Assembly: GCA_001516055.1 (NCBI GenBank) | Contig: LOEZ01000063.1 | Location: forward strand, 1 to 64,000 | Direction: 5' to 3' | Length of the DNA stretch: 64,000 nucleotides | Source of the DNA: Gracilibacter sp. BRH_c7a | GTDB taxonomy: Bacteria; Bacillota; Desulfitobacteriia; Desulfitobacteriales; Syntrophobotulaceae | Part shown: piece by piece, positions 26,838 through 50,371 of the stretch | How positions within the stretch are numbered: position 1 is the stretch's first letter | Layout of the letters: each line of letters begins with the position of its first letter | Notes under the pieces: model-generated | The model's input: only the letters and a program-made list of their open reading frames with translations | Database searches by the model: none | Told to the model about the DNA's origin: nothing | Made by a program: the position numbers and the translations under genes

Positions 26838-27050
26838 CTGGATGAATGATACGGGAGATACCCTCTTTTGGGAGCCGAAGAAGCAAATTGTAAAACTGTC
26901 TTCTTACAATGAAACTTTCAGGCAAAAAGACCGTTTCAGGACAGGTTCTCTGGAAAGTCGTAAGACACCGACGGAGCAACACTTCAACAAAGTGGAATCT
27001 CTCAGGTAACAGATACAGAGGAGTGACATAAAAAGTCACTCCTCTGTTTA
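26838..27050 (+). promoter_or_regulatory. Tandem glycine riboswitch with intrinsic terminator
   Basis: Two glycine aptamers follow one another. Aptamer 1 (about 26850-26936) shows GGGAGATACCC, GCCGAAGAAGCAA and AAACTTTCAGGCAAAAAGACCG. Aptamer 2 (about 26937-27015) shows GGACAGGTTCTCTGGAAAG, ACACCGACGGAGCAA and the closing AATCTCTCAGGTAACAGA. A terminator with a perfect 13-bp stem (27015-27027 with 27035-27047) and tail TTATTTTA follows. By the known mechanism, bound glycine favours read-through into gcvT, so the pathway is switched on by its substrate. Confidence 0.93.
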
Positions 27051-27085: not shown

Positions 27086-28183
27086 ATGAAGAAAACACCT
27101 ATTTATGATTTACATCTTGCTCTTGGTGGAAAGATCATCGATTTTGGCGGTTGGGCCTTACCGGTAGAATACGACGGTATTATTGCTGAGCACAATAATG
27201 TAAGATCTGCCGCCGGGCTATTCGATGTTTCGCATATGGGTGAAATTGAGGTGAAAGGCCCTGATGCTGAAAGATTCCTCCAATATGTATTGACCAATGA
27301 CATCTCTGCTATGGCTGACCATCAGGTATATTATACCCTTATGTGTTATCCGAATGGCGGAGTGGTCGATGACTTAATCGTTTATAAGTATAATCCCGAA
27401 TATTATCTGCTAGTGGTCAATTCCTCCAATAGAGATAAAGACTTCCGTTGGCTTCAGGATAATTCTTCTGGTCAGATTGAGATTAATGATCTATCTGACC
27501 GTTATGCTCTGCTTGCCTTACAGGGCCCTAAGGCTGAGGTGATCTTGCAAGAGCTTACAGATATTGATCTGGACGGGATTAAGTTTTTTAGATTCCACCC
27601 TGAACTTAAGATTGCTGGAATACCTGCTCTCGTTTCCCGTACCGGATATACTGGTGAAGATGGTTTTGAGATTTATGTCAACCCCACCCAAGCCCCCCTT
27701 CTCTGGGAAAGCATACTGGAAGCAGGAGCAAAACACGGTTTAAAACCTACCGGGCTAGGAGCTCGGGATACCTTACGCTTTGAAGCTGCTCTCCCGTTGT
27801 ATGGTCAAGAAATCAGTCAGGATATCACTCCTTTGGAAGCAGGTCTAGGTTTCTTTGTGAAACTCACGAAGGATGACTTTATCGGGAAACAGGCTTTGGT
27901 GAGCCAAAAGGAAACAGGCATTAAGCGCAAACTTATAGGATTCGAAATGATTGACCGGGGCATTCCTCGCAGTAAATATGAAGTAGAGGTTAACGAAGAG
28001 AAGATAGGTTTCGTGACAACCGGGGGCTTCTCTCCCAGTTTGAATAAAAGTATTGGTTTAGCTTTAATAGATTCCAATTATGCCCAAGAAGGTGCTGCCA
28101 TCGAGGTCATAATCCGCCAAAAAAGTCTTAAAGCTAAGATTATTGCAAAGCCTTTCTATAAAAAAAGATATAAAGATCAATAA
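27086..28183 (+). CDS. gcvT: Glycine cleavage system T protein (aminomethyltransferase)
   Basis: 365 residues. It transfers the methylene group from the aminomethyl-lipoyl H protein to tetrahydrofolate and releases ammonia. Recognisable blocks are FGGWALPVEYDGIIAEHNNVRSAAGLFDVSHMGEIEVKG split across residues 20-60, ALQGPKAEVIL near 150, SRTGYTGEDGFEIY near 190 and GLGARDTLRFEAALPLYGQE near 230. The start is set by GGAGGG 10 bases before the ATG. First gene of the operon, 36 bases past the riboswitch tail. Confidence 0.97.
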   Translation: MKKTPIYDLHLALGGKIIDFGGWALPVEYDGIIAEHNNVRSAAGLFDVSHMGEIEVKGPDAERFLQYVLTNDISAMADHQVYYTLMCYPNGGVVDDLIVYKYNPEYYLLVVNSSNRDKDFRWLQDNSSGQIEINDLSDRYALLALQGPKAEVILQELTDIDLDGIKFFRFHPELKIAGIPALVSRTGYTGEDGFEIYVNPTQAPLLWESILEAGAKHGLKPTGLGARDTLRFEAALPLYGQEISQDITPLEAGLGFFVKLTKDDFIGKQALVSQKETGIKRKLIGFEMIDRGIPRSKYEVEVNEEKIGFVTTGGFSPSLNKSIGLALIDSNYAQEGAAIEVIIRQKSLKAKIIAKPFYKKRYKDQ

Positions 28184-28204
28184 TACTTAAAAGGGGGTCT
28201 ACTA

Positions 28205-28588
28205 ATGAAAATTAATAAGGATCTAAAGTACACCGGTTCTCACGAATGGGTACGCCTAGAAGGAAATATAGCCTTCATAGGTATAACTGATTATGCGCAG
28301 AGTCATTTAGGAACTATCGTATTCGTCGAACTACCAGAGGTTGGAGAAGAGATAAGTAAAGGGGCACCTATGGCAGTGGTGGAGTCTGTCAAAGCGGCCT
28401 CCGATGTTTATACACCTTTATCGGGAACCGTTACCGCGATCAATGAGGAGCTTATGGATGATCCTGAACAGATTAATAGTGATCCTTATGAAAGCTGGTT
28501 TGTATCTCTCGAATTAAGCGATTCTACAGAATTGGAAAGTTTGATTGACGCTGAAGGATATCAAAGACTGTCTGAACAGGAGGAATAA
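28205..28588 (+). CDS. gcvH: Glycine cleavage system H protein
   Basis: 127 residues, the usual size. The lipoyl-attachment Lys is K63 in VVESVKAASDVY, and the N-terminal YTGSHEWVRLEG block is typical. It shuttles the aminomethyl and dihydrolipoyl group between the P, T and L proteins. It lies 21 bases after gcvT with an AAGGGGG site. Confidence 0.97.
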   Translation: MKINKDLKYTGSHEWVRLEGNIAFIGITDYAQSHLGTIVFVELPEVGEEISKGAPMAVVESVKAASDVYTPLSGTVTAINEELMDDPEQINSDPYESWFVSLELSDSTELESLIDAEGYQRLSEQEE

Positions 28589-28591
28589 GTT

Positions 28592-29905
28592 TTGTCACAA
28601 CAAGAGATGTTAAATCAGATTGGTCTTGGAACTGTTGAAGAGCTATTCGGCGACATTCCCCAAGAGGTTCGTTTATCAAGGGACTTAAACCTCCCTGTGG
28701 CCCTCTCCGAATTTGAACTGTTGAATCACACGCAAAATCTGTCCCGCAAGAATTTAAATCTAAATGATCATACCTGTTTCCTGGGAGCAGGAGCCTATGA
28801 TCATTTTATCCCAAGTGCAGTAGACGCTCTTCTTTCCAGACAGGAATTCTACACAGCGTACACTCCCTATCAACCGGAAATAAGCCAAGGAATGCTTCAA
28901 GCAATATTTGAATTCCAGACCATGATTTGTGAACTAACCGGCATGGATATCGCCAATGCTTCCATGTATGATGGGGCGAGTGCTCTGGCAGAAGCTATGC
29001 TTCTAGCTTGTCAATCCCAAAAACGCCAGGAAGTGTTAGTAGCTAGGACGGTTCACCCCGAAAGTCGAGAAGTCTTAAAGACCTACGCCAAGTTCCGCGG
29101 TCTAACTGTCCGGGAGGTGGGATATCTTGATGGACAGTTGAATATCCAAGAACTGAAAGAAACTGTGACATCCGATACAGCAGCGATTATCGTCCAAAAC
29201 CCTAATTTCTTCGGCACAATGGAGTCTTTAGGGGAGATTGGAGAAATCGCTCACAACAATAAAGCACTTTTTATCGTTAGTGCTGACCCTATTTCTCTAG
29301 GAATTCTAAAATCTCCAGGGGAACTGGGGGCCGATATCGTGGTAGGAGAAGGTCAGTCTCTGGGTAATCCTCTTAATTTTGGTGGTCCTTACTTAGGCTT
29401 TTTTGCAGTAAAAGAGAAACTGCTGAGAAAAATACCGGGTAGGATTGTAGGGGAGACTAAAGATAAAAACGGCAACCGCAGTTTCACCCTGACTATTCAG
29501 ACCCGGGAACAGCATATCCGTAGAGAAAAAGCAACCTCCAATATCTGCTCTAATCAGGCTCTCAATGCCTTGGCTGCAACTATTTACTTAACCCTGTTGG
29601 GTAAACAAGGTTTGAAAGAAGTAGCCCTACTTTCCCTTCAGAAGTCCCATTATGCATTTGAACAACTTACTTCTCATGATAATTTCTCACCAGTATTCAG
29701 CTCTCCTTTCTTCAAAGAGTTTGTAATCCAAAGTGTCGTCTCTCCGCAAGAACTGAATAGAAAATTACTTGACCATAAAATAATCGGGGGCTACCCGTTA
29801 GAACAAACTTATCCTGAACTGACAAACGGTTGGCTAGTAGCTGTTACAGAAAAAAGGACCAAAGAGGAAATCGACTCTTTTGTCCTGAAAGCGGGAGGGC
29901 AATAA
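28592..29905 (+). CDS. gcvPA: Glycine dehydrogenase (decarboxylating) subunit 1
   Basis: 437 residues: the N-terminal half of P protein in the two-polypeptide form used by Firmicutes and archaea. [12 protein letters not shown] near residue 67, [14 protein letters not shown] near 90 and the segment [20 protein letters not shown] near 300 are characteristic. The start is TTG at 28592, with AGGAGG 8 bases upstream overlapping the end of gcvH. It decarboxylates glycine together with subunit 2. Confidence 0.96.
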
Positions 29906-29906
29906 A

Positions 29907-31361
29907 ATGAAGCAACAACCTCTCATCTTTGAACTTACTAAAACTGAACGTCAAGGTTTTTCGTTACCGACATGTGACGTTCCAACCAAGAGTATCGAGC
30001 AGCTCGTTCCCGAGGCTTATATTAGAATTAACCCTCCAGAATTGCCAGAGGTGAGCGAACCAGATGCTGTTCGTCATTTTACGCAATTATCCCAAAGAAA
30101 CTACGGCTTGGATTCGGGCTTCTATCCTTTGGGAAGCTGTACTATGAAATATAATCCTAAGGTAAATGAAGTGATTGCCCGCATGGATGGATTCCAGAAT
30201 ATCCACCCTTATCAGGCGGAAGATACTGTCCAGGGTTGTCTGGAATTAATGTATGGCCTGGATACTATGCTCTCGGAAATAAGCGGAATGGCTCGGTTCT
30301 CTCTTCAACCGGCAGCGGGTGCTCATGGTGAATTAGCAGGGTTGATGATTATCAAAGCTTATCATGAACAGCGCGGTGAAAATCGCACAAAAATTATAGT
30401 TCCTGACTCTGCTCATGGAACTAACCCTGCTTCGGCCGCTATGGTTGGTTTCGATGTTATAGAGGTCAAAAGCAATTCTCGGGGCGGGATGGATTTAACC
30501 TCACTTAGAGAAAGTATGAATGAAGATATCGCCGGCTTGATGCTGACTAATCCGAATACCCTCGGCTTGTTTGACGAAAATATTACTGAAATCGCTAAGA
30601 TTGTTCATGATGCAGGGGGTCTTCTCTACTATGACGGAGCAAATGCTAATGCAATCATGGGGATTACTCGCCCGGGAGATATGGGTTTTGATGTCGTTCA
30701 TCTTAACTTGCATAAAACATTCGGTACTCCTCATGGGGGTGGAGGCCCTGGTTCAGGCCCGGTAGGGGTCAGGGAAGATTTAGTAAGATTCTTACCGAAA
30801 CCTGTAGTGGAATATGAAGAAGGCAGATATTATCTGGACTACGATAGACCTCTTTCTGTCGGTAGAGTTAAGGCTTTCTACGGTAATTTTAGTGTTCTGG
30901 TTAAAGCTTATTCCTATATCAGAAGCAAGGGACCCGACGGTCTCCGTCAGGTCTCAGAGAATGCCGTTCTTAATGCTAATTACTTGCTTAATAGTCTTAA
31001 GGATATGTTCGTCTTACCTTATGACCGCACTTGTATGCATGAATGTGTCTTCTCCGGTATCAAACAACTGGTGAAAGGTGTCTCTGTGCTAGATATCGCC
31101 AAAAGGTTGCTGGACTATGGTTATCATCCCCCTACCATGTACTTCCCTCTCATCGTCCAGGAAGCCTTGATGATGGAACCTACTGAAACAGAAAGCAAAG
31201 AAACTTTGGATGAGTTTATCAAAACTTTGGGAATTATTATGCAAGAAATAGAGACCAACCCTGAACTGGTCAAGTCGGCACCTCATAACACTGTGGTTGC
31301 CCGCCTGGATGAGGTGGCCGCTGCCCGACATCCTAAAGTTCGGTGGCGACGTAGCCTTTAG
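29907..31361 (+). CDS. gcvPB: Glycine dehydrogenase (decarboxylating) subunit 2
   Basis: 484 residues: the PLP-binding half of P protein. The cofactor Lys is about residue 270 in NLHKTF, followed by the glycine-rich [31 protein letters not shown] near residue 170 is also diagnostic. It starts one base after the subunit 1 stop region, so the two subunits are made together. A short fragment of the dispersed repeat lies just past its stop. Confidence 0.97.
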
Positions 31362-31386
31362 TATATTTGTGCATTGCCCGATCACC
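31362..31386 (+). repeat. 25-bp fragment of the dispersed repeat
   Basis: TATATTTGTGCATTGCCCG followed by ATCACC differs from the corresponding part of the repeat at 5786-5810 (- strand) at only two positions. It lies between gcvPB and lpd, directly after a stop codon. Confidence 0.45.
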
Positions 31387-31441
31387 ACAAATATTACTAA
31401 TGTGTCTGAGAAGCTAAGATTTGTAGCTTGGAGGAATAATT

Positions 31442-32839
31442 ATGGAAATGGATCTTATCGTAATTGGCGGGGGGCCTGGGGGCTATGTAGCGGCTATTCG
31501 GGCTGCTCAGCTTAGTGCTAAGGTGGTAATCGTCGAACAGGATAAAATCGGCGGGACTTGCCTTAATAAGGGGTGTATCCCCACCAAGGCTTTATACAGA
31601 AATGCACAGATGCTCAACTACCTAAAAGGAATGAAGGATTTTGGTATAACGCTGGAAGGTTACTCCTTTGATATTGAAACCGCTCAGACCAGAAAACAAG
31701 AAATTGTTGACCGTCTACAGACCGGGATTATTCAGTTACTAAAGAGTTTCGGTATTCAGGTTATCCAAGGCAAAGGTACACTTATCAGCCCTTCCGTTGT
31801 GGAAGTAACTGATATAGATGGTAAAAAAGAAAGAATCAGTGGTCGCAATATCTTACTGGCAACCGGTTCACAACCTTCAAGGATTCCCGTTCCCGGCCTT
31901 GATCTTCCAGGCGTAATCACCAGTGATCAAGCTTTAGAGTTAGACCATGTTCCCAAAGATATGGTTATTATAGGTGGCGGGGTGGTCGGAATCGAGTTCG
32001 CAGGAATATACCAAGCTTTTGGAACCAAGGTGACGATAGTAGAACTCTTACCTCGTATCTTGCCTACCGTAGATGAAGAACTTGTTAGAAGGCTGACTCC
32101 ACTCCTCAAGAAAAAGGGAATAAAAATTGAAACTGGTGTGACAGTTAAAGAGATTATTCAGGAAAACAGCAGTTTGAAAGTGGTGGCAGAAGGAAAGCAA
32201 GGACCTCGGGAATACTTCGGGGAATTCATCCTCGTATCTGCAGGAAGAAGAGCTAACACCGAAAACCAGAACTTAGCTGAACTGGGCATTACCTATGACC
32301 GTGATGGTATCAAAGTTGATGGCCAATACATTACTTCTGTTCCTGGGATTTATGCTATCGGTGATGTTATCGGAGGTCAGATGCTGGCCCACGTTGCCTC
32401 TGAACAAGGGAAATCAGTTGCCGAGAATCTCTTCGGTTCGGGTGCACAAATCAACCATGATGCTATCCCTTCCTGTGTCTTTTCTTTTCCGCAAGTGGCT
32501 GGGGCAGGCTTGACAGAGGATGAAGCTAGGAAAAGAGGAATCCCCTATTCTGTAAGCAAGTTTATGTTTGCTGCCAATGGTAAGGCCCTAACTATGGGTG
32601 AAACTGATGGTCTGGTAAAAGTGATCTCGGAAGAGCAAAGCAAGAAAATAATCGGAGTTCACATCCTTGGACCTCAAGCCAGTGATCTTATCCACGAAGG
32701 TGTTCTGGCTATTCATCATGGGTTGAATGCTGAAGAGATAGGCAAGGTAATCCATGCTCATCCTACCTTAGCGGAGAGCTTTCAGGAAGCGGTATTAGGC
32801 TTGAACGATCAAGCTATTCATTTAATCCCAAGGATATAA
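31442..32839 (+). CDS. lpd: Dihydrolipoamide dehydrogenase (glycine cleavage L protein)
   Basis: 465 residues. It reoxidises the dihydrolipoyl group of the H protein using NAD. FAD motif GGGPGGYVAAIRAAQL at residues 7-22, redox-active disulfide GGTCLNKGCIPTKAL near 38-52, NAD motif IIGGGVVGIEFA near 175, and the C-terminal His-Glu pair in HAHPTLAESFQEA. GGAGG lies before the ATG. It is the last gene of the glycine operon, which is complete in this window. Confidence 0.95.
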   Translation: MEMDLIVIGGGPGGYVAAIRAAQLSAKVVIVEQDKIGGTCLNKGCIPTKALYRNAQMLNYLKGMKDFGITLEGYSFDIETAQTRKQEIVDRLQTGIIQLLKSFGIQVIQGKGTLISPSVVEVTDIDGKKERISGRNILLATGSQPSRIPVPGLDLPGVITSDQALELDHVPKDMVIIGGGVVGIEFAGIYQAFGTKVTIVELLPRILPTVDEELVRRLTPLLKKKGIKIETGVTVKEIIQENSSLKVVAEGKQGPREYFGEFILVSAGRRANTENQNLAELGITYDRDGIKVDGQYITSVPGIYAIGDVIGGQMLAHVASEQGKSVAENLFGSGAQINHDAIPSCVFSFPQVAGAGLTEDEARKRGIPYSVSKFMFAANGKALTMGETDGLVKVISEEQSKKIIGVHILGPQASDLIHEGVLAIHHGLNAEEIGKVIHAHPTLAESFQEAVLGLNDQAIHLIPRI

Positions 32840-35143: not shown

Positions 35144-38100
35144 ATGCCTAATACTGATAAAAATGCTAAACGATATTATCCCTTGACTCATTCCCAAAAA
35201 AGTATCTGGTATAGTGAAAAGCTTTTCCCGAATACAAGCATGGGAAATATAGCAGCAACACTTCGGATGTTCAGCAATGTAGATTATTCTTTGCTGGAGC
35301 AAGCCATTAATACCTACTTGGAAAAGAATGACGCAGTCCGTCTTCGGATTGTTGAAATAGAGGGTGAACCGAAGCAGTACGTATCTGATTACTCATATTG
35401 CAATTTTGATCGCCTTGATTTCAACGGTGATTTAAATGAGCTCTTTCGTTGGGATGAGAAACAAACCCGAATGCCAATGAATATTATTGAATCCGATTTA
35501 TTCTCCTTTGTTCTCATCAAAATAAATGACCATGATGGTGGTTTTTTTGTAAAGTTTCATCATTTGATTTCCGATGCCTGGACCATGTCTCTACTAGGGA
35601 ATCATGTTATGGAATACTATACAGCACTCAAAAATGGAGAATTGATTTCCGAGGAGAAGAAACCTTCATTTATCGACTACATAGAAAATGATAAGTATAG
35701 AGAATCTAGTAGATTCCAAAAGGATAAGGCCTATTGGGAAGAAAAATTCGAAACTTGGCAAGAAATAACAGCTTTAAAGAATAGGAAGATGGGTAATGCA
35801 AGCACAAAAGCACGCAGGAAGACATTATTAATTCCACAGAAACTAACTGCTAAAATTCACGAGTATTGCGCTCAACAAGGGGTCTCTGAATTCAGCCTGT
35901 TTTTAGCCGCAATCTCTATGTATATAACCAGAGTAACGAACAAAGAAGATCTCGTCTTTGGAACTACTTTTTTGAATCGTTCCAATGCCAAGGAAAAAGA
36001 TACCGCAGGCATGTTTGCTAATGTAGCAGTTCCCCTAAGATTTTATATCCAGGATGAGATGAATTTCAATGATTTTGTGGAGAGCGTCTCCAAGGAGATA
36101 ATAACTGTATTGCGGCATCAGAAGTATCCATATGACCTATTATTAAAAGAAGTCAGGGAAAAAAAAGGTACGAAGGATAATCTTTTCGATATTGTGCTGA
36201 CTTACCAAAACTCTAAATTTATTAAAGATCAGGATTTTGAAGAATATATTACAAGATGGCATTTTAACGGGCACCAATTAGAATCCCTTATTATTAATCT
36301 TAACGATAGGGAAAATGATGGCCGTTTAATTATAGACTATGACTATTTGACTGATTTGTTTTACGCAACCGAAATCGAATTTATTCACAACCATGTCATT
36401 AGTCTCTTATGGCATGCTCTGGATAACCCTGTTAAAAATATCTCAAAGCTTGAAATATTATCTGAGAAGGAAAAACGGAAGATACTTTATAAATTTAATG
36501 ACACCCAAGCTGATTTCCCAATGAATAAAACTGCCCAACAATTATTTGAGGAGCAGGTACAACGGACACCCCATAATATTGCTGTGGAGTTCAGGGATGA
36601 GAGTTTGACTTATAGGGAATTGAACGAAAAGTCCAATCTGCTGGCAAGGATTTTACGGGAAAAAGGTGTAAGCCCCGATAGTATTGTAGGGATTATGTTA
36701 GACCGTTCTCTGGAAATGATAATTGGTATCTTCGGTATCTTGAAGGCCGGAGGGGCGTATCTGCCTATCGATCCGAAAAATCCCCAAGATAGAATTAACT
36801 ATATGCTTGATGATTGTGGTGCGCAGATTTTACTTACGAATTGTATTCAGGAGAACGCGACCCAATTCAGTGCAGATATAATTAATTTAAGTGATGGTAA
36901 ACTCTACACGGGAGATCCATCAAATCCTGAGCATGTAAACAAACCAACAGATTTAGCTTATGTCATCTATACCTCCGGGTCTACAGGTAACCCTAAAGGT
37001 GTTATGATTGAGCACCGAAGCTTAGTGAATAGGATTAACTGGATGCAAAAGAAATACCCCATAGATGAAAGCAGTGTAATACTCCAAAAGACCACTTATA
37101 CTTTTGACGTATCAGTATGGGAACTCGTGTGGTGGTCATTTATAGGTGCTAAGGTTTGCATGCTTGAACCTGAAGGTGAGAAAGATCCCTTAGTAATTAT
37201 TGAAACGATAAAAAGATATGGCGTCACGACTATGCATTTTGTGCCATCAATGTTAAGCATTTTTCTTCATTACCTGGAAAACTATCAAGATATCAAAGCA
37301 TTATCCAGCCTTAAACAAGTTTTTGCAAGTGGAGAGGCTTTAAATCTTCAGCAAGTCGAGAGATTTAACAGACTGCTAAATGCTCCGAATAGTACAGAGC
37401 TTTATAATCTATATGGGCCCACAGAAGCTGCTATTGATGTAACGAGCTTTGACTGCTCGCCAAAGGTAGAGTTAAATACTGTCCCCATAGGCAGACCTAT
37501 CGATAATATTAACCTATACATTCTGGACAAGCACTTGAACCTGTTGCCTATCGGTATTCCCGGGGAGCTTTTCATCGGCGGAGTTGGAGTTGCCCGAGGG
37601 TATATAAACAAACCTGAGCTAACTGAGGAAAAATTCATTCCGAATCCTTTTGTACCAGGAGAAAAGTTATATAGGACGGGAGATCTTGTCCGATGGTATT
37701 CTGAAGGTGATATCGAATACTTGGGTAGGCTTGATCATCAAATTAAAATCAGGGGCTTCCGGATAGAACTTGGTGAGATAGAGAATAAGTTGCTTCTACA
37801 CCCTGATATTAAAGATGCAGTGGTTGTTGGAATTGAAGACAAAGATAGAAAATACTTATGTGTCTACTATGTAAGTTCAAAGGAAATATCAAGCAGAGAA
37901 CTGAGGAGAATCTTATCAGTTTACTTGCCTGAATATATGATTCCATCGATTTTTGTTAGAATGGATACTCTTCCTTTATCATCAAATGGTAAGATAGATA
38001 TAAAGGCTTTACCTCAACAGTGCATGAATGAGTCAAAAGTAGACTATGCCCCTCCAAGAAACAGTATAGATCAAGACTTTGTAGAGATATTTGAAGATGT

Positions 38101-39235
38101 GTTGGATATCGAAAAAATAGGAATCGATGACAGCTTATTCGATCTGGGAGGAGATTCTCTAACTGTAATGATGATTTTTTCTCGGATCTATGATTGTAAC
38201 TGGGGGATTACTGCTGCTGATTTCTACCTCTATCCAACAATACGCGAGCTCTCCGATAAAATTAATGGTGAGCTAAAGCTAAATGCGCTAATGCGTCCAA
38301 TGGATATTCTTGAAATAGGACGACAGGAAGTGGCTGCAGTAAGAGAAATGCTTACGTTTGGTAACATTTTGCTTACCGGAGCTACTGGATTTCTAGGTAG
38401 TCATATTTTAAACGAGTTGTTAAAAACTACAGATAGCAATATTTATTGCCTAGTCCATGGAGAAAGTGATTCTTTGGCAGAAAACAGGCTAAGACAAACA
38501 ATTTCTTTCTATTTTGGGGATAAATACGACAACTATTTTGGAGAAAGAATTATTGTCGTGAGCGGAGATGTCACTAAAGAAAACCTGGGTCTGAAAGAAA
38601 AAGAATATGAAAGATTAGGAAAGCAAATCGATACAATTATACATTCCGCTGTAATGGTCAAATACTCCGGCGACTATAGTCTAATTGAGAAAGTCAATGT
38701 ATTTGGAACAAAAGTAATGATTGATTTTGCGCAAAAGTATAACTGTAAGCTAAACCATTTCTCAACTATCCTTGATACTGAAAAGTATGATAAAAATTTC
38801 GATAATAAAAGAGTTGCGTTAGATTTTAGTGAAATCAATTATGCCATAGGTCACTGTTTTGAGAATTTATTTACAAAAAGTAAATTTGAAGCGGAGAAGC
38901 TCGTACTAAATGCGAGTAAAAAAGGATTGGAAGCAACAATTTTCAGAATGGGTAATTTGATAGGTAGACATATCAATGGATATTTTCAACAAGATGAAGA
39001 CGAAAATAGTTTATTCAGTACCATCAGGTCGATGATGGTTCCAGGGGCACCGGTTGAGGACTTGTATAAAAAAGAAATTGAGTTTTCGCCCGTTGAGCTT
39101 AGTGCCAGAACTGTTGTTGAGATTCTGGAAACTCAGGAAGTTACTAACAAGATATTCCATATTTATAATGATAAAAAAATTAAAATGCGTGACCTTAAGG
39201 GAATCTTGCAAAATATAAATTCAACTCAGACATAA
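35144..39235 (+). CDS. Single-module nonribosomal peptide synthetase, C-A-T-R, serine-like pocket
   Basis: 1363 residues. Condensation domain (about 10-440; HHLISDA near 138), adenylation domain (about 450-955; YTSGSTGNPKG near 607, YGPTE near 756, NGK near 947), thiolation domain (Ser near 1003 in GGDSL), and a reductase domain (about 1065-1350; TGATGFLGSH near 1075). By eye the adenylation pocket in GrsA numbering is D235 V236 W239 H278 F299 S301 L322 I330 D331 K517, one change from the known serine code. Reductase release gives an aldehyde or alcohol rather than an acid. A leading condensation domain without an upstream module suggests an N-acylated or in-trans starter. It is followed 37 bases later by a sensor kinase. 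No phosphopantetheinyl transferase is nearby. Confidence 0.9.
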   Translation: MPNTDKNAKRYYPLTHSQKSIWYSEKLFPNTSMGNIAATLRMFSNVDYSLLEQAINTYLEKNDAVRLRIVEIEGEPKQYVSDYSYCNFDRLDFNGDLNELFRWDEKQTRMPMNIIESDLFSFVLIKINDHDGGFFVKFHHLISDAWTMSLLGNHVMEYYTALKNGELISEEKKPSFIDYIENDKYRESSRFQKDKAYWEEKFETWQEITALKNRKMGNASTKARRKTLLIPQKLTAKIHEYCAQQGVSEFSLFLAAISMYITRVTNKEDLVFGTTFLNRSNAKEKDTAGMFANVAVPLRFYIQDEMNFNDFVESVSKEIITVLRHQKYPYDLLLKEVREKKGTKDNLFDIVLTYQNSKFIKDQDFEEYITRWHFNGHQLESLIINLNDRENDGRLIIDYDYLTDLFYATEIEFIHNHVISLLWHALDNPVKNISKLEILSEKEKRKILYKFNDTQADFPMNKTAQQLFEEQVQRTPHNIAVEFRDESLTYRELNEKSNLLARILREKGVSPDSIVGIMLDRSLEMIIGIFGILKAGGAYLPIDPKNPQDRINYMLDDCGAQILLTNCIQENATQFSADIINLSDGKLYTGDPSNPEHVNKPTDLAYVIYTSGSTGNPKGVMIEHRSLVNRINWMQKKYPIDESSVILQKTTYTFDVSVWELVWWSFIGAKVCMLEPEGEKDPLVIIETIKRYGVTTMHFVPSMLSIFLHYLENYQDIKALSSLKQVFASGEALNLQQVERFNRLLNAPNSTELYNLYGPTEAAIDVTSFDCSPKVELNTVPIGRPIDNINLYILDKHLNLLPIGIPGELFIGGVGVARGYINKPELTEEKFIPNPFVPGEKLYRTGDLVRWYSEGDIEYLGRLDHQIKIRGFRIELGEIENKLLLHPDIKDAVVVGIEDKDRKYLCVYYVSSKEISSRELRRILSVYLPEYMIPSIFVRMDTLPLSSNGKIDIKALPQQCMNESKVDYAPPRNSIDQDFVEIFEDVLDIEKIGIDDSLFDLGGDSLTVMMIFSRIYDCNWGITAADFYLYPTIRELSDKINGELKLNALMRPMDILEIGRQEVAAVREMLTFGNILLTGATGFLGSHILNELLKTTDSNIYCLVHGESDSLAENRLRQTISFYFGDKYDNYFGERIIVVSGDVTKENLGLKEKEYERLGKQIDTIIHSAVMVKYSGDYSLIEKVNVFGTKVMIDFAQKYNCKLNHFSTILDTEKYDKNFDNKRVALDFSEINYAIGHCFENLFTKSKFEAEKLVLNASKKGLEATIFRMGNLIGRHINGYFQQDEDENSLFSTIRSMMVPGAPVEDLYKKEIEFSPVELSARTVVEILETQEVTNKIFHIYNDKKIKMRDLKGILQNINSTQT

Positions 39236-39272
39236 CTGTAATTCAAAAATTAATAATGAAAGAAGAATATAT

Positions 39273-41117
39273 ATGGTATTGAGCTATAACGGACTTGTTG
39301 TTTTAATGTTCATATCCACATTAATGCAGTTGTTTATGGCCATCCTTATTTGGAGGATGAAAAATAAACAACAAATTCATTATGCTTTTTTAGGTACAAT
39401 AGTGGCCATATTTTTTTGGAGCATTATTAGGCTAATCCAGATTTTTGTTGAAGGCAATATCCCTCTCGTTATATTTTTGGAAAAGCTACATTATGTTGGT
39501 GTATGTCTGCTTCCTGTGGCGCTATTACTTACAGGTATCATTTACGCAAAAACTCATATCACCTTCTCTTGGAAGTATTGGCTTTTATTCGTTGTTCCCA
39601 TTATCTCAATAATCATTGTTTTCACTAATGATTATCACCATTTGTTTATTGTAAAATATAGTTTTATTAGCACTGAGTTTGAATATGGTCCTTATTACTT
39701 ATTTCATGAACTTTATTCTTATTCGGCTATTCTTATTGGTATGTTTTATTTGCTGTATTTTACAATAAAAAACTCTGGTTTCTTTTCGAGACAATCTTTC
39801 CTGGTGTTTATGGGAATCACTTTCCCCCTTGTTATAAATGTTTTAAGTACTCGCAAAATCGTTACCATGCCGGTATTTTTCGAGTGTATCGCTTTTTCAG
39901 TTGCAATATTGTGCTTTGCAATTGCTATCTTTAAGTTTCAATTTTTAAATATCTTGCCAATAGCGTTACAACGGATTGTTGACCTTATTTCAGACAGCTA
40001 CATAGTCGTAAATGAAGCCGGTGAAATTATCGATTATAACAAGCCCTTCGTCGATACATTTCAAGGTATTATGCGTATCAAAAGAAAAGATAATATAATC
40101 AATCTTTTGTCAAATGTTGAACTTCATACGAACAAGAAAAAAATCATACGTCTCATAAGAGAAGCGTTGGAGAAGAAACACAACACATCATTTGAAGAAT
40201 ATATTGTAGGAAAGGACTTTGAGAAGCATTTTATTATCGAGATAATCCCCATCTTGTCCAATCATAGTCAACTTGGTACTATTATTCTGTTCAAAGATAT
40301 TTCAGAGCACAAAAAAAATATTGAGATAATTAAACGTAATCAAGAAATACTGATGGAACAAGAAAGAATGGCGTCCTTAGGCCAGATGATTGGAGGTATT
40401 GCTCATAACCTAAATACACCTATCATGTCCTTAGCAGGAGGCATAGAGGCCCTCAAAGACTTAGCTCATGAATATAAAGATTCAATTGAAGATAAGAATG
40501 TGAATTCTGAGGACCACCACGAGATAGCAAGCGAAATGCTGGAATGGCTTGAAAAGATGAAGCCTTATTGCTCGTATATGACAGATATCATCGGTGCCGT
40601 TAAAGGGCAGGCTGTTCAGATGAATTATTCTAAATTCGATAAATTCACTATTGAAGAACTGGTAAAAAGAATAGATGTTCTTATGAAACACGAACTAAAA
40701 AAATATCACTGTACATTAAAAACGGACTTCGCTCTTGATATGACTACAGAAATAAAAGGTGAACTAAATAGTCTGGTTCAGGTCTTTGATAACATGATCC
40801 TCAATGCTATTCATGCTTATGAAGGAGAAAGTGGTGAAATCTATTTCAAAATAACCAAAACTGAAAACAATGTAGAGTTTACCCTTAGCGATAACGGTAA
40901 GGGTATGCCTGAAGAAGTGCAAAAAAGGCTTTTCAAAGAAATGTTGACAACAAAAGGTAAACATGGAACAGGACTTGGACTTTATATGTCGTATTCTACA
41001 ATTAAAGGGAGATTTCTTGGCACCATGCGGTTTAAATCGGTGGAAGGTATCGGTACAACGTTTTATATTACTATTCCCTACATCAACAGTGAAATGCAAC
41101 AGGAGGAATTAGAATGA
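39273..41117 (+). CDS. 7TM sensor histidine kinase with PAS domain
   Basis: 614 residues. Seven hydrophobic segments fill residues about 5-225, matching the N-terminal 7TM module of some Firmicutes kinases. A PAS domain (about 235-345) and a HisKA-type dimerisation region with phospho-acceptor His near 376 (IAHNLNTP) follow. The ATPase domain has DNMILNAI near 507, DNGKGMP near 540 and GTGLGLYM near 567. It should sense a lipophilic or periplasmic-side ligand and phosphorylate the regulator whose ATG overlaps its stop (ATGA, 41114-41117). Co-transcription with the NRPS is likely. Confidence 0.9.
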   Translation: MVLSYNGLVVLMFISTLMQLFMAILIWRMKNKQQIHYAFLGTIVAIFFWSIIRLIQIFVEGNIPLVIFLEKLHYVGVCLLPVALLLTGIIYAKTHITFSWKYWLLFVVPIISIIIVFTNDYHHLFIVKYSFISTEFEYGPYYLFHELYSYSAILIGMFYLLYFTIKNSGFFSRQSFLVFMGITFPLVINVLSTRKIVTMPVFFECIAFSVAILCFAIAIFKFQFLNILPIALQRIVDLISDSYIVVNEAGEIIDYNKPFVDTFQGIMRIKRKDNIINLLSNVELHTNKKKIIRLIREALEKKHNTSFEEYIVGKDFEKHFIIEIIPILSNHSQLGTIILFKDISEHKKNIEIIKRNQEILMEQERMASLGQMIGGIAHNLNTPIMSLAGGIEALKDLAHEYKDSIEDKNVNSEDHHEIASEMLEWLEKMKPYCSYMTDIIGAVKGQAVQMNYSKFDKFTIEELVKRIDVLMKHELKKYHCTLKTDFALDMTTEIKGELNSLVQVFDNMILNAIHAYEGESGEIYFKITKTENNVEFTLSDNGKGMPEEVQKRLFKEMLTTKGKHGTGLGLYMSYSTIKGRFLGTMRFKSVEGIGTTFYITIPYINSEMQQEELE

Positions 41118-42616
41118 GAAGGTCAAAGTCAAGTATTTCTTCAGAATATAAAATAATGATCGTAGATGATGAACCAGGTATTGTTGATTCATTATCCGTT
41201 GTATTCAAACGAAGTGGATATCATATGACCGGTCTTACTGATCCGCTAGAAGCCATAGAGAGAATTCGTAACGAGAAATTTGATTTGTTAATACTTGATT
41301 TCCTTATGTATCCCATACATGGTGACAAAGTAGTGGAGAAGATAAGGGAGTTTAATACAGATTTGTATATTTTACTCCTAACCGGGCATAAAGACCTTGC
41401 CCCTCCTCTTGAAACCATCAAAGCTCTTGATATTCAGGGCTACTGTGAAAAAGGTGACAGGTTGGATCAACTCCTGTTACTCGTCGAATCAGGGATAAAA
41501 TCTATTTCTCAAGTAAGAACAATTAGAAAATTCCAGGAAGGACTTAACAAGATTCTGCAGGCCGTGCCGAAAATATATCAGTTGCAGCCTATCGATAATA
41601 TTCTAGAAGATATCTTAGCCGAGATTTTACCTCTTATTAACAGTACAAATGCATTTATTCTTGTTGACGATATAACAAGAATAAGCATCGGTAACAACAG
41701 CATCTACAAGGGAATCGGCAAATATAAAACAGAGATCGAAGATTTTATGGAAATGCTGGATCCCAGTCTTATGGAGCATATTGGTAGCGCAAGAGTGAAT
41801 AAAAAGTCTGTCAGCCTTGAACATGAAGTTATTATTCCATTGATGAATGAATCTCAACAGGATATAGGGGTCATCTATGTTGAGGGAGATGATATTAATG
41901 ACGGCGTTAAACTCCTTGAGATTTATGCCGGCCAAGCAGCTTCCTCAATTAGTAATGCCTTTTTGCATTCTCTGGTAAACATTAAAAATGATGAACTAAA
42001 TATAACTTATGACCAATTAAGGGAAAGGTATATGGACACCATAGAAGCTCTTCGCTTGGTCGTCGATGCTAAAGATATATACACCCGCGGTCATTCGGAA
42101 AGAGTAGCTTATTTCTCAGTTAAGATAGGTCAAGCCTTTGGTTTATCTCAAGAAGAACTGGAACTTCTGCGCATAAGTGGATTATTCCATGATGTTGGAA
42201 AGGTCGGAACTTCCGACGATATCTTATTTAAATCAGCTCAACTAGATGAAAAAGAATATGAGGAGATTAAAAAACATCCCTTGAAAGGTGCCCATATCCT
42301 TTCGGCAGTATCCATGTTTAAAAAGGTAGTCCCGATTGTCAAATGTCATCATGAACGTGTTGACGGTATGGGCTATCCAGAAGGTTTAAAAAAAGAAGAG
42401 ATACCTTTTATGGCAAGAATAATTGCAGTCGCGGATGCTTTTGATGCCATGATATCCGATAGACACTACCGTACAAAACTCAATTTTGAAGAAGCAAAAA
42501 GCCAGCTCTTACAGGGTACTGGAACTCAATTTGATGAAGAAATAATCAACAAGTTTATATATGAGTTAAACGACTTTGATCAGATGGTTAGAGAGATAGC
42601 AACAACGTACGAATAA
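41114..42616 (+). CDS. Response regulator with GAF-like middle and HD-GYP output
   Basis: 500 residues. Receiver domain (about 12-130; DDE acidic pocket near 18, phospho-acceptor Asp near 59 in LILDF, Lys near 110), a middle region of about 150 residues resembling a GAF domain, a coiled-coil linker, and an HD-GYP domain (about 305-490; RGHSERV, HDVGK near 360, HHERVDGMGYP near 415). It would change cyclic-di-GMP levels in response to the upstream kinase. Translation is coupled to the kinase gene. Confidence 0.9.
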   Translation: MRRSKSSISSEYKIMIVDDEPGIVDSLSVVFKRSGYHMTGLTDPLEAIERIRNEKFDLLILDFLMYPIHGDKVVEKIREFNTDLYILLLTGHKDLAPPLETIKALDIQGYCEKGDRLDQLLLLVESGIKSISQVRTIRKFQEGLNKILQAVPKIYQLQPIDNILEDILAEILPLINSTNAFILVDDITRISIGNNSIYKGIGKYKTEIEDFMEMLDPSLMEHIGSARVNKKSVSLEHEVIIPLMNESQQDIGVIYVEGDDINDGVKLLEIYAGQAASSISNAFLHSLVNIKNDELNITYDQLRERYMDTIEALRLVVDAKDIYTRGHSERVAYFSVKIGQAFGLSQEELELLRISGLFHDVGKVGTSDDILFKSAQLDEKEYEEIKKHPLKGAHILSAVSMFKKVVPIVKCHHERVDGMGYPEGLKKEEIPFMARIIAVADAFDAMISDRHYRTKLNFEEAKSQLLQGTGTQFDEEIINKFIYELNDFDQMVREIATTYE

Positions 42617-42682: not shown

Positions 42683-45600
42683 TTATTCCCTGATTTCGCG
42701 AATACTCAGATAGGGACCGGATATACCATTAATTCTGACATATTCGGCATCGCCCGGAATATCATCCGTATAGTCTTGATCATAGCCGGCGATATCCAGG
42801 CTACCGGTACTTACTTCATTCAGTTCCTCGTCCAGGTACTCTAATTCAACAGTCTGACTGCTTCCGTCGGAAGCATTCAGCGTATATACAGCCTCATCCC
42901 CTCCGGCCAAGCCGAGAACGGAAAGCTTATAGATGATATAGCCGTTGCTACCAAAGATATTGGAATACGTATCAAGATTCCCGTCATAGGCATGATCTAT
43001 ATTATTTGCAGACTGCCAAAGATCCGGATTGGAAGCTAAATCTTCAATTTCATGGATATTGACAATTCCGCTTGTTCCGTTAATCCTGACATACATTCCA
43101 TCAGAAGGTTTTTTCACCACATAACTGTTTTTATCCCCGGTAATATCTAGGGTACGGCTGGCAACAACATCTAAATTCTCATCTAAACATTCAATTAAAA
43201 CGCTTTTGCTGCTAGTACCTAGGGTTATGTCGTAATTCATATATTTTAGGCAATATTTCAGCATTTCCACATCATCCAACCCCAGATCAGAAAGTTTGTA
43301 GACAATATATCCGCCTGGCGTAAATATGTTGGCATAAGAGGTATCGATTTCATCATAGGCATGGGTCTGATTATTGGCATTCCTCCAAAGACTAGGACTC
43401 GCATTGACAGATACCCTGCCAATCTCATGAATGTTAACAATGCCGGCTATTCCGCTAATTTTGACATAGACGGAACCATCGGCAATTTGCGCTGCATAGC
43501 TTCCGGCGACTCCGGAGATATCCAACGTATCGGTGTCAATCACGTTGAAATCAGCATCCAAGTATTGGAGCAAAACGCTTTCGTTTCCGTCACCAAAGCT
43601 TCCGTCATCATTGGTAAATTTAATGGTAAACTCTATCCTGTTCTTACCGTCCAGGTCCAGTACGGATAATGGATAGACAATATAGCCATCATTGGAAAAG
43701 ATATTGGCATACGTATTAATCTTGCCGTCATAGGCATGGGTCAGGTTACTAGCATTTTTGTATAATTCTGCCGTTATCCCTTCATTCGTTCTCATCTCAT
43801 AGATATTAATTTGAGCATCCGTCTTTCCTTTGATTTTGACATATACCGCCCCGTTAGGGATCCGATCGGTATACGCATTCTTATATCCGGATACATCTAA
43901 GGTACTTGCGCTGATAATTTGGAATTCGGAATCCAAATATTCAAGTTCAATAGTTTGAGCACTTCGATCGGAAGCACTGATTACATATCTCCCTTCGTCA
44001 CTGTCTTGCAGTCCGAGATCCGACAGTCCATAAATGATATACCCTTCCTCGTGGAAGATGTTTGCGTATGTGTTGAGATCCCCATCCTTACCATGGGGAA
44101 TGTTATTGGCATATTTGGAAAGTTCCGGAACAACGAAAGCGTACGCTGGAATCACTACTACCGCATCCGCCCCAGCATCAAATCCTAGGGTGGCAGCATA
44201 GCGGACATAGTATGTTCCTGCCGCCAATCCGGTGATAGAAGTCTCCGTCACGCTTATATAGTCGGTCGCGGTGGACAGGCGGTATTCCATCGCCGTGGTA
44301 ACACCGGTAATCTGTCCGTCCTGATTCTCTGCTGTAGTTGGTGCTACACCAACTATACCTGCAGGTGCCGCCTGTTCCTGGTTAACAGGCATATATTCCG
44401 GTATGACAACAGTTGCCTCTGCTCCTGCGTTAAACCCTTCAGCCGCAGCATATCTGACAAAGTAGGTGCCCGGTACCAAGCCCGTAATGGCGGTCCCTGT
44501 AACAACCGTATAGTCCGTGGCTGTGGATAATCTGTATTCCATCGCGGATGTTACCCCGGTAATCTGTCCGTCGTTATTAGCCGGTGACGTCGGGGCTATC
44601 CAAGTTAATAACGTAGGCGCAGCCTGATCTTGATTAACCACCGAATATTCCGGAACAACAACCCCTGCATCGTCTCCGACGTTATACCCTTCGGCAGCAG
44701 CATACCTAACATAATAGATTCCCGGGGCCAACCCCGTAATCGATGTTCCGGTCACCGCCGTATATTCCGCTGACGTCTCAAGTTTATATTCCATCGCCGT
44801 TGTCACCCCAAGAATCTGCCCGTCATTCCCGGCTACCGAGGTCGGGGCTACGACGCTTAAGCCCTCGGGAGCTGGCTGGTCCTGGTTCACTGCCATATAT
44901 TCCGGGATGACCACTGCTGCATCCTCTCCCGCATTATAACCTGTTTTAGCGGCGTACCGGACAAAATAAGTGCCCGGAACCAAACCCGTAATCTCAGTCT
45001 CCGACACAGCTGTATAGGTTGTTTCCGTATCGAACCTGTATTCTAAGTCTGATGTAACACCAGTGATTTTGCCGTTATCATTGGCGGCCGTGGTTGGGGC
45101 GACTCCTACCAGGCCTTCCGGTGCAACCTGCTCCTGATTGGCTGCATCTGGTATCATCATAGTTTGGTATCCATGCCAAGTAGGCGTGGTAAATCCGGCG
45201 GTCCCTTCGAGATAGTAGACAAAAAAGTCGGACTTGGCACCATCAAATATCCGGTTGCCCACGGAAGGAGCATTGTTGGTAAAATATGCATTCAACAAAC
45301 TGCTGCACCCGTAAAAAGCCTCATCCCCAATACCGCTCACATTTGGAAGGGCTACGCTTGTCAGGCTTGTACACCCGTTAAAAGCCCGCGAATCTATTGT
45401 TTTCACACTGCCTATATGCAAATCCTTCAAGCTGGCAATACCATAAAATGCTTCCACGGCAATACTTGAAACTTTTTCCATCTCCACGCTTTGAAGTTTT
45501 GAACATCCCTGAAATGCCCGGGCGCCAATGCTCGTCTCATTTCCTTGGATTGAAACACTCTTCAGATTGGAACAACCGTAAAAGGCTTCATTCGCTATGC

Positions 45601-46204
45601 TTGTTACATTCACCATGGTTACGCTCTTCAGTCTGGTACAGGCGTTGAAAGCCCGCTGTCCTATGCTAGTCCCGCTTCCCTCGATGGTAAGATTCTTTAT
45701 TCCGGTTCCGGTAAATGCGTCGATCCCTATGTTGGACACATCCTCCATGTTCACCGTATCCAGATTGGAGCAACCTTGAAAGGCCCGCTGTCCGATGGTG
45801 GACACGTCCTCAATCGTTACATATTTTAGGCCCGAGCATTGATAGAAGGCATCATTGGCTATGTTCCCAACATTCTTAATGATCACACTTTCCAGATTGG
45901 AACAATTTTGGAATGCCCGATCACCAATCTTTGTTAGCCCTTCAATCTCCACACTATGTATGCTGGTCTTTCCATAAAAGGCATCATTCCCTATACTAGT
46001 AACTTCGATTCCATTAATGCTGTCCGGGACCACGATGTCCCCGCCGCTTCCATTATAACCTGTAATAACACCGGAACCATTAATAACGAAATCGCTGTCA
46101 GCAGCCAGCGAAAATCCAGGAAATGAGAAAAGGAACATCATCCCTATACACAAAATGATGGCTATCAGTTTATGGCTCTTCTTCGTGAGCGCGCTGTTAT
46201 TCAT
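42683..46204 (-). CDS. Secreted BspA-type leucine-rich repeat protein with two further repeat arrays
   Basis: 1173 residues. A signal peptide (residues about 10-35, hydrophobic core ending SLAA) is followed by BspA/LRR_5 repeats (about 40-330; repeated AFxGCSxLxSVxIxxV units). Next come four ~84-residue repeats (about 355-690; each ends near YYVRYAAxxGYxxGxDA) and four ~115-residue beta-rich modules (about 695-1173; each begins with xxANNxxHAYDG and ends near VxIHEI). No sortase motif or S-layer domain is seen, so it is probably secreted or loosely attached. Such proteins act in adhesion or matrix formation. The ATG at 46204 has AGGAG upstream. GC content is higher than that of the neighbours, which may reflect transfer. 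Confidence 0.85.
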   Translation of the reverse strand: MNNSALTKKSHKLIAIILCIGMMFLFSFPGFSLAADSDFVINGSGVITGYNGSGGDIVVPDSINGIEVTSIGNDAFYGKTSIHSVEIEGLTKIGDRAFQNCSNLESVIIKNVGNIANDAFYQCSGLKYVTIEDVSTIGQRAFQGCSNLDTVNMEDVSNIGIDAFTGTGIKNLTIEGSGTSIGQRAFNACTRLKSVTMVNVTSIANEAFYGCSNLKSVSIQGNETSIGARAFQGCSKLQSVEMEKVSSIAVEAFYGIASLKDLHIGSVKTIDSRAFNGCTSLTSVALPNVSGIGDEAFYGCSSLLNAYFTNNAPSVGNRIFDGAKSDFFVYYLEGTAGFTTPTWHGYQTMMIPDAANQEQVAPEGLVGVAPTTAANDNGKITGVTSDLEYRFDTETTYTAVSETEITGLVPGTYFVRYAAKTGYNAGEDAAVVIPEYMAVNQDQPAPEGLSVVAPTSVAGNDGQILGVTTAMEYKLETSAEYTAVTGTSITGLAPGIYYVRYAAAEGYNVGDDAGVVVPEYSVVNQDQAAPTLLTWIAPTSPANNDGQITGVTSAMEYRLSTATDYTVVTGTAITGLVPGTYFVRYAAAEGFNAGAEATVVIPEYMPVNQEQAAPAGIVGVAPTTAENQDGQITGVTTAMEYRLSTATDYISVTETSITGLAAGTYYVRYAATLGFDAGADAVVVIPAYAFVVPELSKYANNIPHGKDGDLNTYANIFHEEGYIIYGLSDLGLQDSDEGRYVISASDRSAQTIELEYLDSEFQIISASTLDVSGYKNAYTDRIPNGAVYVKIKGKTDAQINIYEMRTNEGITAELYKNASNLTHAYDGKINTYANIFSNDGYIVYPLSVLDLDGKNRIEFTIKFTNDDGSFGDGNESVLLQYLDADFNVIDTDTLDISGVAGSYAAQIADGSVYVKISGIAGIVNIHEIGRVSVNASPSLWRNANNQTHAYDEIDTSYANIFTPGGYIVYKLSDLGLDDVEMLKYCLKYMNYDITLGTSSKSVLIECLDENLDVVASRTLDITGDKNSYVVKKPSDGMYVRINGTSGIVNIHEIEDLASNPDLWQSANNIDHAYDGNLDTYSNIFGSNGYIIYKLSVLGLAGGDEAVYTLNASDGSSQTVELEYLDEELNEVSTGSLDIAGYDQDYTDDIPGDAEYVRINGISGPYLSIREIRE

Positions 46205-46356
46205 CGGTTTTCCCACTCCTCACTCAGTTTTTTGCTCGGAAGAATTTTTATAATTAAATAATATGTCTATCTTATTTATTTTACTACTTTTTTCCAATTT
46301 TTTGAACATTTTTTTAAATATTACAGACTTTTTCTATCTCATATTGAAAATTATAA

Positions 46357-46508: not shown

Positions 46509-48179
46509 CTATAAGGAGAGCATATCGCTTTTAATTAAATTTGTTTTTCTTTTTTTTTCAATTATCCTAATCATTTTAATGCCAATTTCTGCTTCAAGTC
46601 TATATTTATTGCTATTTAAGTCTAAAGACCCTATTTCCTTTATCCTTTCCAGTCGGTGTAAGACAGTTTTGTAATGAACAAATAGCTCTTTTGCAGTACG
46701 GGTAGCGTTCCCATTAGCCTTGAGGAAAACCTCTAATGTGTTTAATAAATTGGTATCATTCTCTTTGTCATGCTTTAGCAACGCATTTACTGAACCTGGA
46801 ATAAATTCCTCGAGCGAATTATTTTCTGCAAACTTACAAAATATTCTCATGATACCTAGCTCAGAAAAGCTAACCACGTTTTCATTTAAAATTTTAGCAA
46901 AGTTTATTGCATCTTGGGCCTCTTCATAACTTTGTGCTATCTGTTCAACTTCCTCAGCTACACTACCAATCCCAGTAATAATATTTATTCTTTTAAATTT
47001 ATTAGTTACTTTCTTTGTGATTTTACTTATAGCCTCTTTAATGTCCTGAATAAGATCCTCTTCGCATTTTTCTGAAGGCCATAAAACATAAATGGAATCG
47101 CTCTTAATTCTTACAAAATAGTCATTCTTATCAATACTCTCTTTGATGCTTCTGGAGACAATGGAACCAATCTCCAAAATAACATTATCCATTTCATTAA
47201 GGTAATGGTTTATATTCTCTATATCCAGTATTGTCACAGCATAAGAGCCTGATAAGTCCCACCCAAGTAACGAAGCTCTTTCAAGAACTATATTTTTATC
47301 AAAATCACCTGAGACTAGGTTATCTAGTAAGTCATACTTAAACTTTGTTTCTACTTCGCCAATAGCAAACCTTTTAACTAATTCTAACGATATTACTGTT
47401 GAAGCATTTTCTAGAATGATAAATTCACTTTCACAAAGCTTATGATCTAATTCTACAACTGTTAAATAGGCAGATATTTGATTTAATTGCTGTATAGGTA
47501 CTACAACTTGAGTCGCCTTTCTATTATTTTGATATGGTAAGATTACTTCTTGCCTATAATAGTAAACTTTTTCATTTAAGTTTTCTCTTTCAGAGCTATC
47601 CTTAATCTCAGTAAATTTATTCAAATGTGGGTTAGTAGAAGCTAACACATTAAATCTTTTATCGTAAACAATCACTGGATTACCAATTAACTCTTCTAGA
47701 ACTTTTGTTATACCCTCTAGACCTTCTCCAGCTATGACTAGATCTGTTAGCCTGTCTTGGACGTTTTTGTAGTATTGCAGCTTTGATACTTGCTTATTAA
47801 AAAGCTCCCCCATCACTGGGTACATGATATCAATATATTTTATTTTTTCTCCTATCTCAATTATAGGTAAATTATATTCGTTGCCTGCATCTATAATTTC
47901 TTTAGGAGTTCTATCTACAACCCTGCCGGTCTTTACTATTAGTCCACTTACTCCTTTTTTAGCCATTTTCCCCAGATAATCCTTATAGCTCCATGAATCA
48001 GAATGGACATTATAAAGACTCGTAAGTAAGAGTTCTCCACCTTTAAGCCATTCTACAATATCAGGAGCCTCAATGATTGTAATCCCTTTAACTTTATTAT
48101 CCAGGCCCTTGTGTCCAGCAATTAGACGCCCTTCCTTAAGCGTAGTATTCATTATATCTCTTAGAAATAATTCTTCCAC
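46509..48179 (-). CDS. pucR: PucR-family transcriptional regulator
   Basis: 556 residues. The N-terminal PucR purine-sensing domain (residues about 8-125; GLDNKVKGITIIEAPDIVEWLKGGELLLT split over 25-55) is followed by a GGDEF-like middle (about 300-430) and a C-terminal helix-turn-helix (about 485-540; NGNATRTAKELFVHYKTVLHRLERI). PucR controls purine and allantoin catabolism genes in Bacillus, and the allantoin genes are immediately adjacent here. It is separated from allC by a terminator, so it has its own transcript. Confidence 0.88.
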   Translation of the reverse strand: MEELFLRDIMNTTLKEGRLIAGHKGLDNKVKGITIIEAPDIVEWLKGGELLLTSLYNVHSDSWSYKDYLGKMAKKGVSGLIVKTGRVVDRTPKEIIDAGNEYNLPIIEIGEKIKYIDIMYPVMGELFNKQVSKLQYYKNVQDRLTDLVIAGEGLEGITKVLEELIGNPVIVYDKRFNVLASTNPHLNKFTEIKDSSERENLNEKVYYYRQEVILPYQNNRKATQVVVPIQQLNQISAYLTVVELDHKLCESEFIILENASTVISLELVKRFAIGEVETKFKYDLLDNLVSGDFDKNIVLERASLLGWDLSGSYAVTILDIENINHYLNEMDNVILEIGSIVSRSIKESIDKNDYFVRIKSDSIYVLWPSEKCEEDLIQDIKEAISKITKKVTNKFKRINIITGIGSVAEEVEQIAQSYEEAQDAINFAKILNENVVSFSELGIMRIFCKFAENNSLEEFIPGSVNALLKHDKENDTNLLNTLEVFLKANGNATRTAKELFVHYKTVLHRLERIKEIGSLDLNSNKYRLEAEIGIKMIRIIEKKRKTNLIKSDMLSL

Positions 48180-48281
48180 TTATCTCTCTCCTTCGATAAG
48201 ATTAAGCATGTCCCTCATAGCAAATTATACTAAGCAATTGCCGAAATATCTATCCTTAAATGATAAAGGTAAAATATACTA

Positions 48282-48309
48282 AAAGTACAGACCAAAAGGT
48301 CTGTACTTT
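48282..48309. terminator. Terminator of the allE-allC operon
   Basis: A perfect 12-bp stem (AAAGTACAGACC / GGTCTGTACTTT) with a 4-base loop, 17 bases past the allC stop, with T-rich tails in both directions. Confidence 0.85.
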
Positions 48310-48326
48310 CTATATAAGGCTTAAAT

Positions 48327-49592: not shown

Positions 49593-49594
49593 CT

Positions 49595-50356: not shown

Positions 50357-50371
50357 AATAAATTCCTCCAT

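Follow-up and report, generated by a model that had tools for sequence, protein, structure and literature searches.

A 64,000-nucleotide stretch of Gracilibacter sp. BRH_c7a DNA (contig LOEZ01000063.1, positions 1 to 64,000; hereafter the window) encodes on its forward strand, at 35144..39235, a nonribosomal peptide synthetase (NRPS) of 1363 amino acids in one open frame. This single protein carries four Pfam domains in the order Condensation, AMP-binding, PP-binding and NAD_binding_4: a condensation (C) domain of the starter, N-acylating type with the active-site motif HHLISDAW (35171..36487, E 1e-85), typed from a C-domain tree and a match in the PDB; an adenylation (A) domain with the serine code DVWHFSLIDK, read from an alignment to EntF (36545..38023, E 1.5e-89); a thiolation (T) domain with the phosphopantetheine serine in DLGGDSL (38066..38278, E 1.6e-11); and a degenerate thioester-reductase (R) domain (38351..39184, E 1.6e-48), whose Rossmann half is kept and whose catalytic half is eroded. 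The same forward strand continues with a histidine kinase gene (39273..41117; Pfam) encoding an N-terminal HisKA_7TM membrane domain and an intact His box, AHNLNTP, and with a response regulator gene (41114..42616; Pfam) encoding REC-DUF3369-HD-GYP with intact HD and HHE..DG.GYP motifs. The open reading frame (ORF) coordinates and the domain order confirm the C-A-T-R synthetase proposed in an earlier, sequence-only reading of this DNA; its description as stand-alone holds for the module but not for the locus, where the kinase gene starts 37 bp downstream and the regulator gene overlaps the kinase gene by 4 bp. The C domain of this synthetase is the sole condensation domain detected in the 4.1-Mb draft genome.

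The nearest whole-length homologs are found in G001 (76%; the metagenome-assembled genome Gracilibacter sp. LH_M27, same genus) and in G008 (68%), and the same family and order contain about 30 more C-A-T-R genes (38-45%). Compared with these proteins, the R domain of the window NRPS is damaged at its active site and at its end. The catalytic Tyr of the short-chain dehydrogenase/reductase (SDR) fold is replaced by Phe1243 (codon 38870..38872, + strand; YxxxK to FTKSK), at a position occupied by Tyr in 32/32 aligned homologs and in the solved R domains 6vtj, 4u7w, 4f6c and 8v1x; the Thr and the Lys are retained, leaving the Thr/Ser-Tyr-Lys triad incomplete, and the NADPH-binding GxxGxxG motif is present as GATGFLG. 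The homologs extend 70-100 residues beyond the C-terminus of the window protein, which lacks about 85 C-terminal residues corresponding to the substrate subdomain that is complete in the homologs and in the solved R domains. Alignment of the DNA with G001 and G008 revealed that about 255 bases have been lost from the stretch running from residue ~1350 to the stop codon (deletion site 39194..39272, + strand; stop at 39233-39235, then the 37 bp preceding the kinase gene), and no remnant of the lost C-terminus was found in the other reading frames.

The damage is restricted to the R domain. Among the columns that do not vary across the remaining full-length homologs, the window protein breaks 0/22 in the C domain, 0/71 in the A domain, 0/9 in the T domain and 1/18 in the Rossmann half of the R domain, versus 10/28 in the R catalytic half, where no intact relative breaks more than one or two and only the truncated copy of genome G037 breaks five. 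AlphaFold modelling of the window R domain gave a well predicted Rossmann core, a catalytic loop with pLDDT below 50, and no C-terminal helices; the model of the G001 R domain was complete (mean pLDDT of 87) and matched the solved R domains from end to end. A sequencing or assembly artefact was rejected as the cause of the damage, given the ten scattered changes at invariant columns, the open frame and the preserved synteny into the kinase gene. Replacement by a foreign reductase was also disfavoured: the window R domain is still closest to its sisters, with which it has the FRMGNL signature in common.

Selection acted differently on the domains along the window branch. Under a codon model with five taxa, omega (the ratio of nonsynonymous to synonymous substitution rates) on this branch was 0.55 in the R catalytic half compared to 0.10 elsewhere (2dlnL 71.6), 0.28 compared to 0.15 in the R Rossmann half, 0.035 compared to 0.094 in the C domain and 0.077 compared to 0.113 in the A domain; synonymous sites approach saturation along the deeper branches, making these absolute values rough. 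Three-taxon counts gave 43 window-specific changes in the R catalytic half versus 10 in the sister G001, and were nearly balanced in the C (16 versus 15) and A (32 versus 23) domains. Death of the whole enzyme would have raised omega in the C and A domains too, and the opposite was observed, indicating that the C-A-T core was kept under strong purifying selection while reductive release was lost. The alternative of a pseudogene in progress, with the whole pathway being lost and the R domain the first to decay, draws on the homologous loci decaying elsewhere: a copy truncated in the R domain beside fragmented HD-GYP genes (L056, G037), a copy split by an in-frame stop (L047, G019), and a copy interrupted by an inserted gene of about 480 amino acids which recurs in the adjoining kinase region (L052, G013). 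We regard it as unlikely for the window, where the C and A domains keep all invariant residues and show the lowest omega values, the kinase and regulator are conserved, and neither stop nor frameshift precedes the terminal deletion.

At the sequence level, the substitution of Tyr by Phe, the relaxed catalytic half and the deleted C-terminal subdomain show that the window R domain has lost reductive catalysis. A slowly working R domain that still releases N-acyl serinal without the Tyr would be compatible with the intact GATGFLG motif, the triad Thr and Lys and the confidently modelled Rossmann half; in carboxylic acid reductases, activity was drastically reduced, but not abolished, by the Tyr-to-Phe substitution (AtCAR Y863F), and the Ala variant of NcCAR was inactive (PMC5826065). 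Such slow release is nevertheless very improbable in our judgement, since it leaves unexplained the ten broken columns of the catalytic half, the deleted subdomain and the five-fold rise in omega confined to the R domain; residual aldehyde formation by an enzyme which has also lost its substrate subdomain is unlikely. The R domain might instead have been repurposed, serving in release or cyclisation without redox chemistry, or as a cofactor-binding regulatory or structural domain. An omega of 0.55, still below 1, the open frame, and a Rossmann half with a single broken invariant column and its cofactor motif kept would fit this proposal; the catalytic loop modelled as disordered does not, and the fungal Dieckmann R* domains use a beta-keto group which no polyketide synthase partner is present to supply, so that we consider repurposing quite improbable. 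The preferred reading, loss of reductive catalysis, changes what can be expected of the product: the sequence-only reading correctly recognised a terminal reductase domain, but its integrity is gone (Phe1243, last ~85 residues missing), and the serinal derived from it is not supported for the window protein, where the loss of the catalytic Tyr and of the substrate subdomain is accompanied by relaxed selection in the R domain only. An inactive reductase had been named there among the outcomes that would refute the serinal, and the missing Tyr and C-terminal subdomain bear on just that point. The two closest relatives, G001 and G008, combine the same serine code with an intact reductase, and for them the serinal remains a reasonable prediction.

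The order A-T-R and the R fold are those of the known aldehyde-releasing NRPSs with a terminal R domain (AusA, producing aureusimine; the archaeal T-R protein 6vtj; MxaA) and of the minimal ATRed of Xenorhabdus (PMC7586950). The G001 R domain matches the known aldehyde-releasing R domains over its full length; the window protein differs from those systems in its R domain, which has neither the catalytic Tyr nor the final ~85 residues, in the starter C domain preceding the A domain, and in the adjoining kinase/HD-GYP pair.

The amino acid loaded by the synthetase is predicted with good support. Aligned with the A domain of Escherichia coli EntF, annotated as serine-activating (DVWHFSLVDK), the ten pocket residues of the window A domain (DVWHFSLIDK) differ only by Ile for Val at position 330, and this near-identity supports serine activation, as had been predicted earlier from the pocket residues. 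The Phe at position 299, previously taken for a departure from the serine code, is also present in EntF and is an ordinary residue of that code. The two A domains are 42% identical, and EntF has a terminal thioesterase and a siderophore product. The codes of G001 and G008 are identical to that of the window, and most other C-A-T-R homologs have DIxQxGMVWK-like codes resembling published glycine codes, so that the window's clade seems to have switched amino acid.

The acyl side of the product was approached through the C domain. In a quick tree of 82 condensation domains (19 weak forks elsewhere in the tree), the C domains of the window and of the other stand-alone C-A-T-R proteins cluster with the N-terminal C domains of surfactin/lichenysin synthetases (joint clade with SH-aLRT of 95), apart from the internal LCL and post-epimerisation DCL domains of the same synthetases, which were those of Bacillus mojavensis and B. 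glycinifermentans, assigned from gene order. This placement, which bears on the starter versus dipeptide type question raised by the sequence-only reading, led us to reject a dipeptide-type (LCL/DCL) domain. The best solved-structure matches by sequence, 7c1k/7c1h, are those of the starter domain RzmA-Cs. The grouping with surfactin/lichenysin starter domains leads us to expect an N-acyl-seryl thioester; of the N-acyl or N-aminoacyl chain originally proposed, the phylogeny and the RzmA-Cs match favour the N-acyl-serine type and disfavour the N-aminoacyl one. The RzmA starter C domain has been described with octanoyl-CoA, and starter C domains can accept acyl-CoA (PMC7804268); the lack of an acyl-CoA ligase gene, noted earlier as a puzzle, is therefore no anomaly, and an adjacent AMP-binding ligase is present at six homologous loci. 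The window C domain falls in the clade of the starter domains of lipopeptide synthetases such as SrfAA and RzmA-Cs (PMC7804268), from which the window enzyme differs in having one module, without peptide elongation. The fatty-acid-amide systems of gut Clostridia (OaaA/OaaACP/OaaC; PMC13142362) also have a condensation domain related to the starter type and a lipid-amino product, but consist of separate proteins that act on a free amine, whereas the window enzyme has its A and T domains fused and would load serine on the T domain.

In the proposed pathway, the starter C domain would transfer an acyl group, probably from acyl-CoA, to the serine loaded on the T domain by the A domain, giving N-acyl-seryl-S-T. 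The R domain of the relatives, judging from its intact motifs, would release the N-acyl chain as an aldehyde. Since the window R domain has lost reductive catalysis while C-A-T stayed selected, the chain must be released by some other route, of which hydrolysis to N-acyl-serine would be the simplest, and the window product is probably this non-aldehyde compound. A profile search of the window genome returned no PF00975 thioesterase, and no second thioester reductase (PF07993) of comparable score.

The genes following the synthetase are themselves conserved. The window kinase and regulator are 69% and 87% identical to their G008 homologs, with pairwise omega values of 0.05 and 0.03, indicating that both are under purifying selection. 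Eight loci have an NRPS-kinase-regulator neighbourhood, and their kinases fall into two kinds with unrelated input domains. A kinase or HD-GYP gene lies within three genes of the NRPS at 31/35 loci, compared to 9/207 ORFs further away. At most loci outside the window's clade, a neighbour shares a common N-terminal domain of about six hydrophobic segments without any Pfam match; the fusion partner of this undescribed ~6-TM (transmembrane) sensor domain is a histidine kinase, a kinase-REC hybrid or HD-GYP itself (examples among histidine kinases and HD-GYP proteins: L031:6260-7573, L046:12128-13441 and L046:5820-7133, strand -). The domain has 45 strong copies in 101 genomes, 36 of them no more than 3.5 kb from a C-A-T-R synthetase, compared to 1/16 of the weaker copies. 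These loci, which are related and not independent, show about six distinct gene arrangements, which argues against the simple inheritance of one layout. A phosphopantetheinyl transferase (PPTase) gene is located directly upstream of the NRPS at seven loci; in the window genome an Sfp-type PPTase is encoded on another contig. No riboswitch was found in the NRPS leader, and a search of the open-licence literature found no description of an NRPS paired with a histidine kinase or HD-GYP protein in Clostridia, Desulfosporosinus or Dehalobacter.

The most likely role of this arrangement would be signalling: the NRPS would make a lipidic signal, which the neighbouring membrane sensor would read and convert into cyclic di-GMP hydrolysis. 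The locus would then be a lipo-amino-acid synthase-receptor module, in which an N-acyl-serine synthetase with a lost reductase is followed by the sensor pair reading its product, an interpretation we hold with evenly balanced confidence, the signal role being what we infer from the gene neighbourhood. More broadly, and only as a tentative and rather doubtful proposal, an undescribed form of cell-cell signalling may exist in Desulfitobacteriales-like relatives, where one-module NRPSs would make N-acyl amino aldehydes (mostly with glycine-like codes, with serine in the window's clade) to be read by the adjacent ~6-TM sensor on a kinase or HD-GYP protein; the window system would be derived, its signal a non-reduced N-acyl-serine in place of the N-acyl amino aldehyde of the relatives. 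The diffusible signal factor (DSF) module RpfF-RpfC-RpfG has a comparable composition, with a synthase gene, a membrane histidine kinase and a REC-HD-GYP regulator (RpfC: PMC5391125), by analogy and not by homology. No RpfF-type synthase is encoded in the window operon, whose enzyme is an NRPS outside that crotonase family, and sensing in the window is proposed from the genes.

Several points weigh against this interpretation. The main limit is that the degenerate R domain was found in one genome only. A Tyr-to-Phe change need not by itself abolish activity (PMC5826065), and the window protein keeps the Thr and Lys of the triad. The genome searches yielded no release enzyme for the window chain, so that N-acyl-serine is an inferred product. 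In several relatives, kinases of the HisKA_7TM type also occur with no NRPS nearby, and linkage of the genes is no proof of sensing.

The locus offers a natural case of an NRPS that dropped its release chemistry with its synthetic core still selected, and the two close relatives with an intact domain serve as controls. The recurrent pairing of a synthetase with a membrane sensor leading to an HD-GYP phosphodiesterase is a concrete candidate case of lipo-amino-acid signalling among strict anaerobes and, if the ligand were confirmed, the ~6-TM sensor domain would constitute a new receptor class.

Other features were observed in the window and beyond. A complete operon for glycine cleavage (gcvT, gcvH, gcvPA, gcvPB, lpd; 27086-32839) is preceded by tandem glycine riboswitch aptamers (26842-27028). 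The gene converging on the regulator gene (42683-46216, strand -) encodes a protein of 1177 amino acids, which has a signal-like N-terminus and contains leucine-rich repeats of the BspA type (LRR_5) as well as other repeats. Purine catabolism is suggested by the genes at 46509-50371, whose translations read as a PucR-like regulator, an enzyme resembling allantoate amidohydrolase and a protein resembling ureidoglycine aminohydrolase. A cluster at L148:238-8875 (G000:C38), likewise read from translations, encodes beta-ketoacyl synthase III (KAS III)-like, dehydratase-like, AMP-ligase and SDR proteins together with two PPTases, and is possibly a fatty-acid- or polyene-like pathway also supplying the PPTase for the NRPS.

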